From NCBI RefSeq assembly GCF_002078355.1, contig NZ_CP015363.1, positions 868,001 through 932,000 on the forward strand: a stretch of DNA of 64,000 nt. The letters run 5' to 3'. The notes below the pieces were generated by a model, which saw only the letters and a program-made list of their open reading frames with translations, was not told the origin of the DNA and searched no databases. Each line of letters begins with the position of its first letter. The stretch's first letter is position 1. The translations under genes were made by a program, and so were the position numbers. Source of the DNA: Ferroplasma acidiphilum. GTDB taxonomy: Archaea; Thermoplasmatota; Thermoplasmata; Thermoplasmatales; Thermoplasmataceae. Shown piece by piece: positions 47,196 through 58,035 of this stretch.

Positions 47196-50100
47196 TTCTT
47201 AATCCTAATAAGGTTCTATTTTATCATTATTTTTCTTTTTCTCCCCGGATATATCAATACCATTTCAATCCTATTAAGGTTCGATTTTATCTTCATTAGT
47301 TTTTATGGAAATGGTAGAAACCTTTGTCTTTCAATCCTAATAAGGTTCTATTATATCTATCCATAAAATGCCGTTCGGGTTTACATTTCCCTGCTTTCAA
47401 TCCTATTAAGGTTCGATTTTAATTTTTAGCGGTGTTAGTTTTCCTTTATATCTAATATTCTTTCAATCCTATTAAGGTTCGATTTTAATATTGCTACCCC
47501 CAACTTTATCATCCCCTGCATAAAACTTTCAATCCTATTAAGGTTCGATTTTAATATTCTTGGCATGCCCCAATTTTGAGAGCATTGTCATCTTTCAATC
47601 CTATTAAGGTTCGATTTTAATGAGTATCCTTACTATACCTGCCACTGTGCCACTACATTCTTTCAATCCTATTAAGGTTCGATTTTAATCAGGGTAGCAC
47701 AACCGCCTTAAGGCAGCTTGAATGGGCTTTCAATCCTATTAAGGTTCGATTTTAATGCATTAGGGGGAGCAGCTGCCTTAGTAATTGGTAGCACTTTCAA
47801 TCCTATTAAGGTTCGATTTTAATAAAATTCACAAAGTTTATATAAGTCTCAAAAATTACTTTCAATCCTATTAAGGTTCGATTTTAATGCTGCTACTGCT
47901 ATAATGCCTAAGGCAAAAGCAACTTACTTTCAATCCTATTAAGGTTCGATTTTAATCAATTATTTTCCAAGCCCTCAAGATCCCTTTGACCGCTTTCAAT
48001 CCTATTAAGGTTCGATTTTAATTTTTTTACCACCACTTTTTTATTTTTTTGTTTTATCTTTCAATCCTATTAAGGTTCGATTTTAATGTATTACCTTGAA
48101 ATTGCATAAGCTATTCCGATTATCTTTCAATCCTATTAAGGTTCGATTTTAATCACTGGACAGCGAGGAGGAGGACCTGCGATGGGATGACTTTCAATCC
48201 TATTAAGGTTCGATTTTAATCATACCCTCTTAGAAATAACAGGGTAGTACAGAAGGCTTTCAATCCTATTAAGGTTCGATTTTAATTACGAAGGGGAAGA
48301 ATGTTCTGGGGTGTGCATGTTATCTTTCAATCCTATTAAGGTTCGATTTTAATTATATCAGGTAAAATACCGTCCATTATTTTCTCAAATCTTTCAATCC
48401 TATTAAGGTTCGATTTTAATTTGATAAAAAAATATTGCATTAAAGATGCGGATTTAACTTTCAATCCTATTAAGGTTCGATTTTAATTGGAAAAAATCAG
48501 AAAGAATGCCAGGGTCTTTAAACTTTCAATCCTATTAAGGTTCGATTTTAATTCGGTGATAAAAAATGAAGTCTGAATTTGAAATAAGGCTTTCAATCCT
48601 ATTAAGGTTCGATTTTAATGATGTATCTGATGACTGTTATGATGCGCAGAGCGATCTTTCAATCCTATTAAGGTTCGATTTTAATTTTTTATCATGAGGA
48701 GACAATGCAGTAATAAAGAATCTTTCAATCCTATTAAGGTTCGATTTTAATAAAAAGTGTTGACAATCCACGACCTTTAGGAATGACTTTCAATCCTATT
48801 AAGGTTCGATTTTAATCATTTTCAACACGTGTTGTTACATCATGACCAAAACCTTTCAATCCTATTAAGGTTCGATTTTAATTCATATCGATAACTCAAT
48901 CATTAAGTACCTATGATCTTTCAATCCTATTAAGGTTCGATTTTAATTCCACTGTGAAGTAATGGTTTACCCATCCTAATGTCTTTCAATCCTATTAAGG
49001 TTCGATTTTAATTAATGAGATAAACACAGTAATTGCAACATTCAGCTATCTTTCAATCCTATTAAGGTTCGATTTTAATTTCCTGTTTCATTGACTGCCA
49101 ATATTCGTCTTTAAGCTTTCAATCCTATTAAGGTTCGATTTTAATTTCCAGTCATACGTAAATGCAGAAGAATCAGGATCTGACTTTCAATCCTATTAAG
49201 GTTCGATTTTAATTAGATACTGCTTTTGTCCAGGATATGATGATACTACTTTCAATCCTATTAAGGTTCGATTTTAATGAAGAATTGGAATATATAAGCG
49301 AACATATTAAGCAGCCTTTCAATCCTATTAAGGTTCGATTTTAATGAGAATATGGATAATACTGAATTTATAAATTGTGTACTTTCAATCCTATTAAGGT
49401 TCGATTTTAATATTTAGTGCTGTGTTAACCTGAAGTTGCTTAAAGCCACTTTCAATCCTATTAAGGTTCGATTTTAATGCTATTTTTCCTATCTGTTCCT
49501 TTATGTCTGCAGTCTTTCAATCCTATTAAGGTTCGATTTTAATTCGATTGCAACGGTACAATTATCATATCATCATTCCCCTTTCAATCCTATTAAGGTT
49601 CGATTTTAATGACAAATAATATCGCCAATGCGACAAGTCCGGCTATCTTTCAATCCTATTAAGGTTCGATTTTAATCTTCATTATCAATAATTCCTTTAG
49701 ATTTTCAGTGTACTTTCAATCCTATTAAGGTTCGATTTTAATAATTAAAAAAGTTAAAAGTGAGCCTAACATAGCACTCTTTCAATCCTATTAAGGTTCG
49801 ATTTTAATTATATCCGTCACTACCTGATTATGTTCTACCGGTTTCTTTCAATCCTATTAAGGTTCGATTTTAATTAAATATTCTTTTCTATCTGACATTT
49901 TTGCCACCTTACTTTCAATCCTATTAAGGTTCGATTTTAATATATTATTTGTCGTGAAAAGAGTAAGTTTCTTATCACTTTCAATCCTATTAAGGTTCGA
50001 TTTTAATTTTAATGAAGAATACAGACCATGCATTGTTTAAGGTCTTTCAATCCTATTAAGGTTCGATTTTAATCCAATGGAGGTGAGAAATTGAAATTTT

Positions 50101-53100
50101 GCTATATAACTTTCAATCCTATTAAGGTTCGATTTTAATTCGCCAACGGAACCGCAACATTCTCATCAATATCAACTTTCAATCCTATTAAGGTTCGATT
50201 TTAATTATTCTCAGAATCCATTTCTCCTCACCTTATTCTTACTTTCAATCCTATTAAGGTTCGATTTTAATATTTGTATGTAAAATCTATATGATGCCCA
50301 TTATAATCTTTCAATCCTATTAAGGTTCGATTTTAATAGTTTTTGCACATTTCACTATCGCTTCTTAATTCCACTTTCAATCCTATTAAGGTTCGATTTT
50401 AATTTATATTCTGATGAGCTGGATTTCAATACTAATTTAGACTTTCAATCCTATTAAGGTTCGATTTTAATTTGCCATCCCCTTCATTTCCTGCGAATTT
50501 ATCTATCTCTTTCAATCCTATTAAGGTTCGATTTTAATTTCTTCATCCGGTTCATACACTGTTGATTTGACGGCTTTCAATCCTATTAAGGTTCGATTTT
50601 AATGCAGATGTTACTTCCGGCTGGCCTGCTCTGGATAACTTTCAATCCTATTAAGGTTCGATTTTAATGTAATAGCTGCAGCAAATCCTATAAATTCAAT
50701 ATTTCTTTCAATCCTATTAAGGTTCGATTTTAATTTTATTAGGATTCGTATTTCTTTTCAAATTTAAAAACTTTCAATCCTATTAAGGTTCGATTTTAAT
50801 CATTCTATATCCCCCGTAAAATTATAGTTTATATATGTCTTTCAATCCTATTAAGGTTCGATTTTAATAAAGACACAGCTTAGAAAAATACACATCCATG
50901 GCTTCTTTCAATCCTATTAAGGTTCGATTTTAATATTGCATGGTTGCCTAGTATTGCCCAGATAACATCACTTTCAATCCTATTAAGGTTCGATTTTAAT
51001 TGGGTCGCCATCTTCATATATATCGTATAATATTTCTTTCAATCCTATTAAGGTTCGATTTTAATATGTATATGCGGGCAAGAAGGGCAAAAGAGAAAGC
51101 TCCTTTCAATCCTATTAAGGTTCGATTTTAATGTACAGAGGATACTCGATCGGCTTATATTCATAAGACTTTCAATCCTATTAAGGTTCGATTTTAATCC
51201 TGCATCTGTAGGATTGTGGCTTGCACTTATTGTCTTTCAATCCTATTAAGGTTCGATTTTAATGAAAATGCAGGCCTTATAACATAATCTCCGAAATCAC
51301 TTTCAATCCTATTAAGGTTCGATTTTAATGAAACTATGATTGTAATATAGATAGATCCGGAACAGCCTTTCAATCCTATTAAGGTTCGATTTTAATTATA
51401 GACTGCCCGAACCCGCTGAATGACATTGATATCTTTCAATCCTATTAAGGTTCGATTTTAATGAAATACATAGCTTCCATCTTCGGATTTATAGATGACT
51501 TTCAATCCTATTAAGGTTCGATTTTAATGAGTTTGATAATGAAGTAATGGCCCTAATTATATCCCTTTCAATCCTATTAAGGTTCGATTTTAATTTCGTC
51601 TTTCCTTTCCTTCCTGGACTTTCTACAATCTTTCAATCCTATTAAGGTTCGATTTTAATTATATTCAATTTAACATATTGCATAAAGTTTATATGCCTTT
51701 CAATCCTATTAAGGTTCGATTTTAATACTGTAAACCCTAAACGTAAACCCGTTAACCCTATACACTTTCAATCCTATTAAGGTTCGATTTTAATGAGGAT
51801 GTAGCACCTGATACTGCACTCCCGTTTAGGCTTTCAATCCTATTAAGGTTCGATTTTAATTTGTCAGCAAACGGTGCAACCGGATCTGCAAACATCTTTC
51901 AATCCTATTAAGGTTCGATTTTAATACATCAACGATTATGTAATACCATATGTCAACAAATACCTTTCAATCCTATTAAGGTTCGATTTTAATAAGATGT
52001 AGAACCTGATGCCAATTGCGAATTAGAAGCTTTCAATCCTATTAAGGTTCGATTTTAATTGGATATGTTGAAACATACCCTTAAAGCGTGTATCCTTTCA
52101 ATCCTATTAAGGTTCGATTTTAATCATACCCTACTGGGTAGACATAGCCTGGGCGCATTATCTTTCAATCCTATTAAGGTTCGATTTTAATGGTCCTGTT
52201 CTCCTTGTGGTTGTCATCGGAGTATCATTCTTTCAATCCTATTAAGGTTCGATTTTAATCTATAAATAATCCTAATAAAGAAGCTACCGTTTTAACTTTC
52301 AATCCTATTAAGGTTCGATTTTAATGTGCAGTCGCAACAATGTTCCAGAGCTTCGGATTCTCCTTTCAATCCTATTAAGGTTCGATTTTAATGACTTGCT
52401 CTTTGTCTGATTCTCGGCTTTCTGAATACTTTCAATCCTATTAAGGTTCGATTTTAATTCAATAATTCCACAACAGATAATCGTGGACAGGATAATCTTT
52501 CAATCCTATTAAGGTTCGATTTTAATGGGTTATGGACTGCTGATATTGTAAGGGTATATCCTGCTTTCAATCCTATTAAGGTTCGATTTTAATTATAGTC
52601 ACTGCCACCCAGCACTGATGAAGAAAATTGCTTTCAATCCTATTAAGGTTCGATTTTAATTGCAGTCGCAACAATGTTCCAGAGCTTCGGATTCTCCTTT
52701 CAATCCTATTAAGGTTCGATTTTAATTATTGAATAATTTGTTGAAGCAGAAAATGATGTTGTACTTTCAATCCTATTAAGGTTCGATTTTAATTAGTTAA
52801 AGATAAATTGATACAGGAAAATTAATATTACTTTCAATCCTATTAAGGTTCGATTTTAATCTACTATTGCAAAAAATATTACATCCGGTGTTAAAACTTT
52901 CAATCCTATTAAGGTTCGATTTTAATATCCAATGATTATTATAGATACTACTAATCAATTTACTTTCAATCCTATTAAGGTTCGATTTTAATAAGAGATC
53001 AAGAGGAAATATAAAGAGTCAAGGAAAACTTTCAATCCTATTAAGGTTCGATTTTAATATGTTTCATCTTATGATATCACACATAGCCATACTCTTTCAA

Positions 53101-56100
53101 TCCTATTAAGGTTCGATTTTAATCTGTTATTTTCTCTCTCATTTTATCATCTTATTTTTGCTTTCAATCCTATTAAGGTTCGATTTTAATTCTCTCTCAT
53201 CTCTGTTGTTTGTGTTTTGTTTTTCCACTTTCAATCCTATTAAGGTTCGATTTTAATCTGGATTTCATGAGTATAGACAGCTATATATTCAATATCTTTC
53301 AATCCTATTAAGGTTCGATTTTAATCAGAGATTATCGCCCTTGTGCTATGGATTATTGAGACTTTCAATCCTATTAAGGTTCGATTTTAATCCAATTTAG
53401 ACCATACAACAAGAGATGTTGAATTTACTTTCAATCCTATTAAGGTTCGATTTTAATAAACTTCAGGAATCTCTGTTGCCAGGAAAGAGGCAGAACTTTC
53501 AATCCTATTAAGGTTCGATTTTAATATTATATCCAAAAGCAAATATAAAGGTGTATTATGCTTTCAATCCTATTAAGGTTCGATTTTAATGAATATTATT
53601 CGCTTGAGCTATTGAGAGCATATGGACTTTCAATCCTATTAAGGTTCGATTTTAATCTTCTTTTAAATCATCTTTTTCCTTTTTTAAATCATACTTTCAA
53701 TCCTATTAAGGTTCGATTTTAATATTTATCATCCAAGTTTGGATGGCTTCTCCGTGTATGCTTTCAATCCTATTAAGGTTCGATTTTAATCCAAGAAAAT
53801 AGCATACATAAACCCATACGATGTAATACTTTCAATCCTATTAAGGTTCGATTTTAATGATACGCCACCTGATATGTATTTTCCGACATTTCCAAACTTT
53901 CAATCCTATTAAGGTTCGATTTTAATATTTCTTAATTTCGTCATTAGGTAATACCAATTGACTCTTTCAATCCTATTAAGGTTCGATTTTAATTATTTAA
54001 AAATGTCCTGAAACTTGAAGATGCCATAGAACTTTCAATCCTATTAAGGTTCGATTTTAATCATATATAACCTGTCCTATGCATATTTGCATATCTAACT
54101 TTCAATCCTATTAAGGTTCGATTTTAATCCACGGTAAGGTTGTAATTTGAAATAGATGTGGCAAGCTTTCAATCCTATTAAGGTTCGATTTTAATCAGTG
54201 CTGTCATTATTCTCCGGCATTCTTGGATCCATCTTTCAATCCTATTAAGGTTCGATTTTAATCAGGAAGTCCAGAAGGATATTTTAACAGCTTATGAACC
54301 TTTCAATCCTATTAAGGTTCGATTTTAATCTGTATATTCCCATGCGTACCCGCAATGAGTACACCGCTTTCAATCCTATTAAGGTTCGATTTTAATTACA
54401 AGACCTTATAAGTATGTCCTGGAAAGGTACAACTTTCAATCCTATTAAGGTTCGATTTTAATCCATTGCCTGTCCTAAATCTGTAAAGGCTGTTATAAAC
54501 TTTCAATCCTATTAAGGTTCGATTTTAATAGTAGTGAACCCCGAAAGCCCTAATTCCGTTATAATTCTTTCAATCCTATTAAGGTTCGATTTTAATCCCT
54601 ATACGGAAGTTTCCCACCTTTCCCAACTACAACACTTTCAATCCTATTAAGGTTCGATTTTAATTTTAATAACAGTAAGGTCTCCGGGTGCTTCAAATTT
54701 CTTTCAATCCTATTAAGGTTCGATTTTAATTGTATAGTGGACAAAATGCAACTCATACAGTTACAATCTTTCAATCCTATTAAGGTTCGATTTTAATTAT
54801 TCTTTCAGTGAAGTTTTTGAGCATTTAATTGAAGCTTTCAATCCTATTAAGGTTCGATTTTAATTAACGTGGAACCACCAAATTTAGTAGAAATAACTAC
54901 TTTCAATCCTATTAAGGTTCGATTTTAATTGGATAAATACCAACTACGATGAGCCAGACCTGGACCTTTCAATCCTATTAAGGTTCGATTTTAATTCAGG
55001 TGCGAGTACTGCAGTGTTGTCGGATGTTGACTTTCAATCCTATTAAGGTTCGATTTTAATCCATATAATGGCATATCGGGCAATTCGTGTAAAACTCTTT
55101 CAATCCTATTAAGGTTCGATTTTAATTATAATTTATCATGGTCTTTTTTGATAAATTTCTTCTTTCAATCCTATTAAGGTTCGATTTTAATCGCAATAAG
55201 CCGACCGGAAAGCCGCATTTCACGAAGCTTTCAATCCTATTAAGGTTCGATTTTAATAAGTAATAATATTAATATTGTCTTAAAGTCTTAAAAACTTTCA
55301 ATCCTATTAAGGTTCGATTTTAATGAGTAATTACTCTACTCTGTGGGTACATTTGCAATCTGCTTTCAATCCTATTAAGGTTCGATTTTAATTAATAATT
55401 CTTTTTAAAAAGGACTATAACGGAAAAATGCTTTCAATCCTATTAAGGTTCGATTTTAATGATATAATGAAACCGACAACAGCCGAAAGCGTAGAGGCTT
55501 TCAATCCTATTAAGGTTCGATTTTAATTCATCACAGACCCTTGTAATCTCTGAGATAAACTCCTTTCAATCCTATTAAGGTTCGATTTTAATTGATGATT
55601 GCAGGGGCGACAACCCCCTGGGTAATAACCTTTCAATCCTATTAAGGTTCGATTTTAATTTTGAAGTCCTCGGATACAGTCGGTGTTCCATACCAGTACT
55701 TTCAATCCTATTAAGGTTCGATTTTAATACAGCAGAAATATCAGGCGGTACAGGCCCATATAACTTTCAATCCTATTAAGGTTCGATTTTAATCAGATGT
55801 CTTCAATGCAACAATTTCAGGAGGAACCTTTCAATCCTATTAAGGTTCGATTTTAATCAGATAACCAGTGGTTCAGCATCGGCAATTGATTGTTCTTTCA
55901 ATCCTATTAAGGTTCGATTTTAATTAGAAGTACAGAAGCGGCATGTAAATCAGCAATGACTTTCAATCCTATTAAGGTTCGATTTTAATCAAATGGCCAG
56001 AACATCCAGGGAATGGATATAAAACTTTCAATCCTATTAAGGTTCGATTTTAATGATAATTTCACCTCAAAGGTGGTTGGCCCTGAAGTAGAACTTTCAA

Positions 56101-56192
56101 TCCTATTAAGGTTCGATTTTAATGCAATATAAAAATCTGCTATGATATCAGTTTTCTCCCTACTTTCAATCCTATTAAGGTTCGATTTTAAT
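47196..56192 (-). CRISPR. Type I-D-associated CRISPR array, 136 repeats
   Basis: I count 136 repeats of 30 bp and 135 spacers, mean repeat-to-repeat distance 66.4 bp (spacers about 35-38 nt). In transcribed (minus-strand) orientation the repeat begins ATTAAAATCGAACC and ends AATAGGATTGAAAG; the ...ATTGAAAG end is the typical 5' handle of archaeal crRNAs, and the leader with cas2 lies at the right end. From 47394 rightwards the repeats I checked are identical. The three leftmost (47196, 47262, 47328) carry 7, 3 and 5 mismatches and form the oldest, leader-distal end. One spacer occurs twice (52326-52362 and 52661-52696). Reading frames of 60-100 codons across the array repeat the peptide LKSNLNRIES and are artefacts. 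Confidence 0.98.
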
Positions 56193-56296
56193 CCGTTCCT
56201 AATATCCTTAATTTTACAATGTTTATAAGTATTTCTTTTTATCAAAAATGTAGAAATCGGATATTTGACATAAGGTATATAAAGGATTGACACAAA
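56193..56296 (-). promoter_or_regulatory. CRISPR leader with TATA box
   Basis: 104 nt between the cas2 stop and the first repeat. On the minus strand ACTTATAAAC (56221-56230) is a good archaeal TATA box, about 33 nt from the first repeat, so transcription should begin some 6-7 nt before it. The A/T-rich remainder has no gene. New spacers would be added at 56192/56193. Confidence 0.75.
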
Positions 56297-56557
56297 TTAG
56301 ATTATATTAGAAAATTCGTAGGATACTCCGAGCTTAATTCTCCTTACAAGTTTTTCGTCTCTCAAAATAAAAAACTGAATAGAGTCCTCAGACTCTATAA
56401 TTTTATCTTTTAATTTATCCCTTAATATTCTAAGATTTGCCCATCCTATTTCGCCCAGAAATACAGAATTTTGAACACGTATTAAATAGAGAGCGCATAT
56501 TTTTCTAATTGAATTTACCCGTTTTTCATTGATATCATATGTTAAAACAATCCACAT
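56297..56557 (-). CDS. cas2: CRISPR-associated endonuclease Cas2
   Basis: 86 aa. Ferredoxin-fold opening MWIVLTYDINEKRVNSIRKIC, with the conserved Asp after the first strand (YDI), and LIRVQNSVFLGEIGWANLRIL, the usual 'QnSVF.g.l' second strand. Cas2 dimer bridges two Cas1 dimers in the spacer-integration complex. The gene abuts cas1 (start directly after the cas1 stop) and is the last of the operon before the leader. Confidence 0.95.
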   Translation of the reverse strand: MWIVLTYDINEKRVNSIRKICALYLIRVQNSVFLGEIGWANLRILRDKLKDKIIESEDSIQFFILRDEKLVRRIKLGVSYEFSNII

Positions 56558-57517
56558 TTAATCCCTCATAATGTATGGCTTATAAGTTTTATTTTCCATA
56601 ATGTGCTTTTCAATTTTGTATAGTTCAATGCGGATTAAAAACCTATAAGAAACTTTCCTTCTTAAACTCGCCGAATACACCGTTTCCCTTAATTTATTTT
56701 CAAATTCTTCCAGGACCTTCTTTTTTCCATATTCATTTAAAAATATCCCATTATCATCGATAAAATCTGTTTTTTTCATTATTTTGAGGTTAATTAATTT
56801 TAAAATAACCCGGTCACAGAGTACTGGTCTGAATATTTCCGCAACATCCAGTGAAAGGCTACTTCTACGTTCTCCTGGCTCATGAAGGAAGCTTATCTCC
56901 GGAGATAAATGGGTACTAAATATTTGCGCCCCTACGATACCATAGAGAACAGAGTATAGATAACTCATCATAGAATTAATATAGTTCCTTGGCGGTTGCC
57001 TTGTTCTTGAATCTATTTTAAAATCATCCGGAAGTTTTGTATCGAGTAGTTCCAGATACTTTATGTGTATATTTCCCTCAACTCCCATCAATTCCTGAAT
57101 AGTGCGAGAATTTTCTATTTCCTGTAATGGTAATTTTATCTGGCCTATTTTGAGTCTTTGAAGTAACCTTTTCATATTTTTTCCTGCTCCTAAAACGAAT
57201 TTTTTTGCTAATTCTATTCTTAGTTCCGGATTGTTATAAAACTCAGCCTGGTGTGACAGGACAAAACCGCTTTGAAGAAAATTTTCAGGATATATACTTG
57301 ATATATACCAACCATGCTGGGAATATAAGAATACCGGGATTTTTTTGTCCGATAATAATTTAAGTACGGGGGTAGTAAAGCTAATATTGCCAAATATTAA
57401 GATTTCATCTATAGTCTCTATTGGAATGTCTATATTTTGATTTTTGTTGGAGAATCTTACAGAATCGCCCAATTTAAACAATGATCCGGAATTTATTAAA
57501 TAATATGTATCACCCAT
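56558..57517 (-). CDS. cas1: CRISPR-associated integrase Cas1
   Basis: 319 aa. The metal-binding active site is complete: Glu147 in GVEGNIHIKYLELL, His212 in SFLHEPGERRSSLSLD, and Asp224/Glu227 in LDVAEIFRP. The N-terminal beta domain (YYLINSGSLFKLGDSV, IDEILIFGNISFTTPVLKLL) is normal. Cas1 inserts new spacers at the leader end of the array. It is 5 nt after cas4 and contiguous with cas2. Confidence 0.97.
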   Translation of the reverse strand: MGDTYYLINSGSLFKLGDSVRFSNKNQNIDIPIETIDEILIFGNISFTTPVLKLLSDKKIPVFLYSQHGWYISSIYPENFLQSGFVLSHQAEFYNNPELRIELAKKFVLGAGKNMKRLLQRLKIGQIKLPLQEIENSRTIQELMGVEGNIHIKYLELLDTKLPDDFKIDSRTRQPPRNYINSMMSYLYSVLYGIVGAQIFSTHLSPEISFLHEPGERRSSLSLDVAEIFRPVLCDRVILKLINLKIMKKTDFIDDNGIFLNEYGKKKVLEEFENKLRETVYSASLRRKVSYRFLIRIELYKIEKHIMENKTYKPYIMRD

Positions 57518-57522
57518 TTATA

Positions 57523-58035
57523 TTACCCCCAGCAGAAAGAACTATAGCTACACCCGTGATTGCAATAATAATTCCTAATCGGGTCTGGAATTATTTCATT
57601 GCGTAGTTTTTCTAATTCTGTGTACACTGTATTTAGTTCGTTTATTGCATCCTCATCTAATTTTATTATCTTAATGTCTTTTGAACCAAGTGTGTGGATT
57701 TCGCCGTTTTCTACGGTATATCCTTTTGTTCTTAAAATGTTCATATAATGCAAAACCTGAAAAATGTCTCCTGGCAAAACTTTCTTTCCTCTTTTAAACT
57801 CGTGAACTATATAATTGTCATTAGGAGTAATTTCCAGATTATCTAGAACATTTCTACCGAGTTTTATATTTGTGAATCCGTACCTACGTTTTTTCTTGCT
57901 TAAGTAGTCGCCGTGTGCTACAAACTGATTTTTATCAATAATATAAAAATTTTTTAATGACATCCACGCCCTTCGCCTGCAGATAAAATAATAATTTATG
58001 TCCGTGCCTTTTATATTAAGTATGTCAACATTCAA
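57523..58035 (-). CDS. cas4: Cas4 exonuclease (adaptation module)
   Basis: 170 aa. The iron-sulfur ligands are visible: Cys19 in YYFICRRRAW and Cys158, Cys162, Cys168 in YYCNHGCSYSSFCWG. RecB-type nuclease motifs VHEFKRGKKVLPGDIFQVLHYM (the E-x-K/Q-x3..Y motif) are present. Cas4 processes prespacers and sets PAM and orientation. It overlaps cas3' by 4 nt. Confidence 0.93.
   Translation of the reverse strand: MNVDILNIKGTDINYYFICRRRAWMSLKNFYIIDKNQFVAHGDYLSKKKRRYGFTNIKLGRNVLDNLEITPNDNYIVHEFKRGKKVLPGDIFQVLHYMNILRTKGYTVENGEIHTLGSKDIKIIKLDEDAINELNTVYTELEKLRNEIIPDPIRNYYCNHGCSYSSFCWG

Follow-up and report, generated by a model that had tools for sequence, protein, structure and literature searches.

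A spacer held twice in one type I-D CRISPR array of Ferroplasma acidiphilum, with lengths one base apart, as a probable re-capture of a single target site

The DNA analysed here, referred to as the window, is a stretch of 64,000 nucleotides of Ferroplasma acidiphilum (contig NZ_CP015363.1, positions 868,001 to 932,000). It holds a long CRISPR array, CRISPR1, and an adjoining cas operon on the same strand (Table 1). Three degenerate repeats lie just upstream of the array on the plus strand, and the final base of the presumed leader is a G in the crRNA sense. The combination of Cas10d, Csc1 and Csc2 that characterises type I-D is present, Cas10d being recognised by the PADLOC model Cas10_Id (with no match in NCBIfam or Pfam) and the other two by TIGR03159 and TIGR03157. 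The adaptation genes, on the other hand, do not score as type I-D, as Cas1, Cas2 and Cas4 (56297-58035) favour PADLOC models labelled I-B over those labelled I-D. From these profile matches the operon looks mixed, with a I-D effector and I-B-like adaptation genes, its spacers still having a GT PAM; the adaptation part varies between systems and alone does not define the subtype. Outside the window, the second array of the genome contains a spacer of 62 nt (G000:C1:939461-939522) with an internal tandem repeat of 26 nt, 13 nt of which are CRISPR repeat sequence; it looks like the product of slippage at a short ATATAT match.

Table 1. Features of the CRISPR1 locus, in window coordinates
Feature	Position	Strand	Basis
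CRISPR1 array, 132 spacers (34-39 nt) between 133 identical repeats of 30 nt	47394..56192	-	agrees with PMC5473848
Spacer S58, 37 nt, older copy (farther from the leader)	52326..52362	-	direct reading and script
S57-S54 and the repeats between, separating the two copies; none duplicated elsewhere in either array	52393..52630	-	
Spacer S53, 36 nt, younger copy; S58 without its last (leader-distal) base	52661..52696	-	direct reading and script
Presumed leader, about 104 bases, between cas2 and the first repeat	56193..56296	-	position only; function putative
cas2, 86 aa	56297..56557	-	PADLOC Cas2b, E 2.1e-22
cas1, 319 aa, I-B type	56558..57517	-	TIGR03641, E 2.5e-106
cas4, 170 aa	57523..58035	-	PADLOC Cas4, E 8.4e-32; TIGR00372 under its cut-off
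cas3' helicase, 613 aa	58032..59873	-	PADLOC Cas3 of CAS-I-D, E 1.8e-19
csc1 (cas5d), 219 aa	59860..60519	-	TIGR03159, E 3.6e-23, over cut-off
csc2 (cas7d), 322 aa	60524..61492	-	TIGR03157, E 4.5e-17, over cut-off
cas10d (csc3), 836 aa	61485..63995	-	PADLOC Cas10_Id, E 2e-62

Within this array one spacer occurs twice. Read on the plus strand, directly and by script, S58 is GTGCAGTCGCAACAATGTTCCAGAGCTTCGGATTCTC, and S53 is the same sequence minus its first G, which means that, read in the crRNA sense, S58 has one additional C at its leader-distal end. In numbering from the leader, the two spacers are separated by five repeats and the four spacers S54-S57. The initial annotation, made from the letters alone, had described the pair in this way, and the two readings confirm its lengths and positions, the additional G at the left edge of the longer copy and the spacing. 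The differing base falls exactly at the spacer-repeat junction and outside any homopolymer. When the 132 spacers of CRISPR1 and the 30 of the second array were compared all against all (162 spacers, 13,041 pairs), the next-longest substring common to any pair was 12 nt, so that an identity of 36 nt is not a matter of chance. The same comparison revealed no other duplicated spacer in the two arrays, S54-S57 included, and a search of the whole genome with the 36-mer gave no further site at up to 3 mismatches beyond S53 and S58. The pair therefore has the form associated with independent re-acquisition, namely two spacers, not in tandem, that match one target and differ in their ends or lengths.

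A search with the whole array across 41 genomes, including its own, returned short and nearly exact matches in another genome of the same genus (G005). The matched stretch recurs at an offset of 29,431-29,432 bases (about 29.4 kb), the contig ending inside the second copy, and encodes an MCM helicase and a large protein with PKD domains. It may represent a provirus or a similar element; no capsid gene was identified in it, and IMG/VR yielded no relatives of three of its proteins. Twenty of the 132 spacers match the fetched stretch at 9 mismatches or fewer, five of them perfectly, while a control with one shuffle per spacer gave none at this threshold and two at 11 mismatches. A related stretch is present at 515-555 kb of the same genome, and by translated matching 35 of 131 spacers score at least 41 against either of the two; S53 was left out of this count, as it was from the length, clustering and translated PAM counts, to avoid double-counting the pair. 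A few of the weaker translated matches may be due to chance, since 300 random 36-mers of the host reached maximal scores of 40 against the first stretch and 44 against the second. The tandem arrangement of the element, from G005:C1:1810694 onwards at the end of a one-contig genome, could be real or an assembly overlap. Spacer S7 (55729-55763) has two matching sites, separated by 246 bases, in the large PKD-repeat gene and could therefore target two places of one virus.

These matches orient the array. Among the close ones (at most 5 mismatches, n = 15), GT occupies positions -3/-2 on the leader-proximal side in 11 (G at -3 in 13, T at -2 in 12), and nothing comparable was seen on the opposite side of the same 15. 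The translated matches repeat the pattern, with GT in 20 of 35 vs 2 of 35 at the mirrored place, S58 itself being among the 15 that do not have it. Both sets agree with a GTN PAM 5' of the protospacer, as expected of type I-D, for which GTN is given as the interference PAM in PMC10212523. As GT lies on the leader-proximal side, the end that S53 and S58 have in common is the PAM end; the earlier proposal that they share the leader-proximal, PAM-side end is thereby borne out, the array being read on the minus strand. Two other spacers could be slipped captures: S6 (55794-55827) itself begins with GTT, its match having no GT at -3/-2, and S120 (48221-48256) has a perfect match at which GTA is moved one base outwards.

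The alignment of S53 and S58 with the element is a distant one, with 12 mismatches for S53 and 13 for S58, and falls at about 1818505-1818541 in G005. The site is in frame with an open reading frame of 137 aa, in which the spacer would read AVATMFQSFGF and the element reads SIVMMFQSFGF. Of 77 genomes of the family, 10 contain relatives of this reading frame, and the own genome is not one of the ten; the homologous site lies in a small, conserved gene of the element. On the coding strand, S58 has its additional base at the second position of the codon preceding AVA. That codon encodes Q, R, N, D, G, S or T in recognisable relatives, with a coding-strand G at the position of the extra base in two independent homologous loci only, and the homologues were dropped as a test of the extra base because the codon varies too much. 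The homologous site in G005 has ATG at -3 to -1 and not GTN; a paralogue elsewhere in that genome (533.8 kb; L039) has the codons TCA ACA there, which is GTT in the crRNA sense. Further, S72 (51397-51432) targets the same gene directly beside the S53/S58 site (ISMSFSGFGQSI vs IGEVFSGFGQSI) and was apparently taken from another variant of the element.

The protospacer itself was sought more widely. It was not found as an exact match in 117 genomes of the order, and the 36-mer is absent at up to 3 mismatches from the 116 other than the own genome. Exact and codon-degenerate searches of IMG/VR gave nothing convincing, and the same holds for phage and plasmid records, against which whole-array queries (8,000 of 8,799 bases) returned weak matches only (best E 0.2). 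Four matches to unrelated bacteria from a degenerate search of genome contigs were read as chance. As for sister strains, a genome of the same species (G061) has a single weak match to the array and no comparable array; strains Y-T and fer1 are described as having unrelated CRISPR systems (PMC5473848), and strain ZJ is reported to have no arrays (PMC12350378).

In all likelihood, S58 and S53 are two separate captures of one site that were afterwards trimmed differently. Both would have been taken, at different times, from a single PAM-flanked site of an element related to the one of about 29 kb in Ferroplasma. Cutting at the same PAM would give the common leader-proximal end, and trimming of the PAM-distal end that differed by one base would give 37 and 36 nt. 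The two events would then be independent, and the extra C (crRNA sense) would presumably come from the protospacer. Judged by the 131 other spacers, two captures differ in length with a probability of 0.73, and by exactly one base with a probability of 0.43. No special process is needed for a same-site pair, since 0.20 such pairs are expected by chance for 33 spacers and the 2,684 GT sites of the element. A cell that holds S58 should, however, resist an unchanged site, and the second capture therefore requires acquisition that is leaky or fed by interference.

A different origin of the pair is duplication by recombination between identical repeats, with a subsequent one-base indel at the spacer-repeat junction; a block of five units could, for example, have been duplicated in tandem and four of them then lost, or gene conversion could have produced the copy. 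The 133 repeats, being all identical, would allow recombination, and the 62-nt spacer of the second array, with its 26-nt internal repeat, indicates that rearrangements do occur in these arrays. Recombination predicts, however, copies of equal length, whereas here a base differs exactly at the junction and away from any homopolymer, and no intervening spacer is duplicated. A later indel at precisely this place is unlikely because the repeats are all identical: with 0 changes in their 3,990 bp, the rate is bounded at about 7.5e-4 per bp, or about 1.5e-3 for two junctions. The resulting ratio for two captures vs duplication is a few hundred before priors, and falls if the uniformity of the repeats is maintained by gene conversion, which would loosen the mutation bound. 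Recombination is thus an unlikely source of the pair. The preference of the initial annotation for capture twice over recombination is upheld in part, being favoured by the PAM side, the length spread and the identical repeats, while recombination is disfavoured and no more than that.

It is also conceivable that the same fragment was captured twice and that S58 owes its extra base to the array, the integrase having cut one base into the leader and gap repair having copied that base. By reasoning from the integration scheme, such a slip would put the base at the leader-distal end, where it is seen; the present leader, however, ends in G and the extra base is C, and a copied leader base was rejected on this ground, which makes the slip very improbable. 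Long arrays of identical repeats are difficult to assemble. An assembly or sequencing error in the repetitive array, of which one assembly of the strain was examined, is the least credible source of the difference, given that the genome is a complete single contig (1,826,943 bases), that the window agrees with the repeat count and spacer sizes published in PMC5473848, and that no homopolymer surrounds the differing base.

In the element, S47, S52, S55 and S58 match sites no more than about 1.6 kb apart, and S67, S71, S77 and S78 match sites no more than about 460 bases apart. Permutation tests on the array order found close pairs to be more frequent than expected, with p values of 0.0003-0.046 for 24 spacers at a stricter score and 0.0055-0.14 for 32 at a looser one (18 settings), and a simpler adjacency test gave p values of 0.03-0.30 (8 values); as several settings were used, all values are given here and the smallest p is not taken as the result. 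Array neighbours therefore tend to lie near each other in the element, weakly suggesting bursts of capture from one virus, or priming. The same clustering could arise if the element is unevenly conserved, since its conservation determines which spacers can be mapped at all. A tentative and rather doubtful possibility is that targeting by the S58 crRNA fed degraded DNA to Cas1-Cas2, which then yielded S55, S53, S52 and S47 from within about 1.6 kb, S53 being the S58 site itself. If true, this would amount to evidence from nature that adaptation in a type I-D system can be primed or driven by interference. The 2023 review states that data on priming in type I-D are lacking and names it among the open questions (PMC10212523), and no study of it is named in the titles and abstract openings of the papers found by a search from 2023 on; nothing on spacer lengths was found in the parts seen of the Haloarcula priming paper (PMC3936756). 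Should the clustering of neighbours hold, it would bear on whether type I-D systems prime.

Overall, the pair is a clean but ordinary example of protospacer re-capture, a kind of event that is already known. Its value lies in holding the same target twice, with the PAM end fixed and the other end off by one, and hence in being a natural record of cutting by a machinery that would be precise at the PAM and loose at the other end. The by-products, namely the orientation of the array, its PAM and a candidate target element, are more useful than the pair itself. The element is a candidate target for up to about a quarter of the array; in 2017 the targets of this array were given as unknown. No published report of this PAM, orientation or candidate target was recognised in literature searches, judged by titles and abstract openings except for the papers cited here.

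The array corresponds to CRISPR1 as described for F. acidiphilum Y-T, with the same repeat counts, repeat size, spacer sizes and assignment to subtype I-D; that report gives all CRISPR1 spacers as different, whereas S53 and S58 differ by one base only, and found none of the spacers to match a virus or plasmid (PMC5473848). Matching spacer pairs, one of them with different lengths, are likewise known from Sulfolobus islandicus, where they were read as separate captures from one place of a virus or plasmid, and matches that differ in length or are offset were taken as signs of independent acquisition (PMC2946923). There the pairs were sought between coexisting strains and 37 of 41 were offset, whereas in F. 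acidiphilum the two copies stand in a single array of a single strain and have one end exactly in common. A mechanistic counterpart comes from the type I-D genes of Synechocystis, which were studied in Escherichia coli and carry out adaptation by Cas1, Cas2 and Cas4 (PMC10212523). The present system differs from it in being archaeal, in having adaptation genes that score best against I-B-type models, and in being known from its sequence alone. It resembles that account in the following: spacer size varies by 5-6 nt and the interference PAM is GTN, as in CRISPR1 here, and Cas4 cuts the PAM end while an unidentified nuclease trims the other, the PAM-distal end being the one at which S58 and S53 differ.
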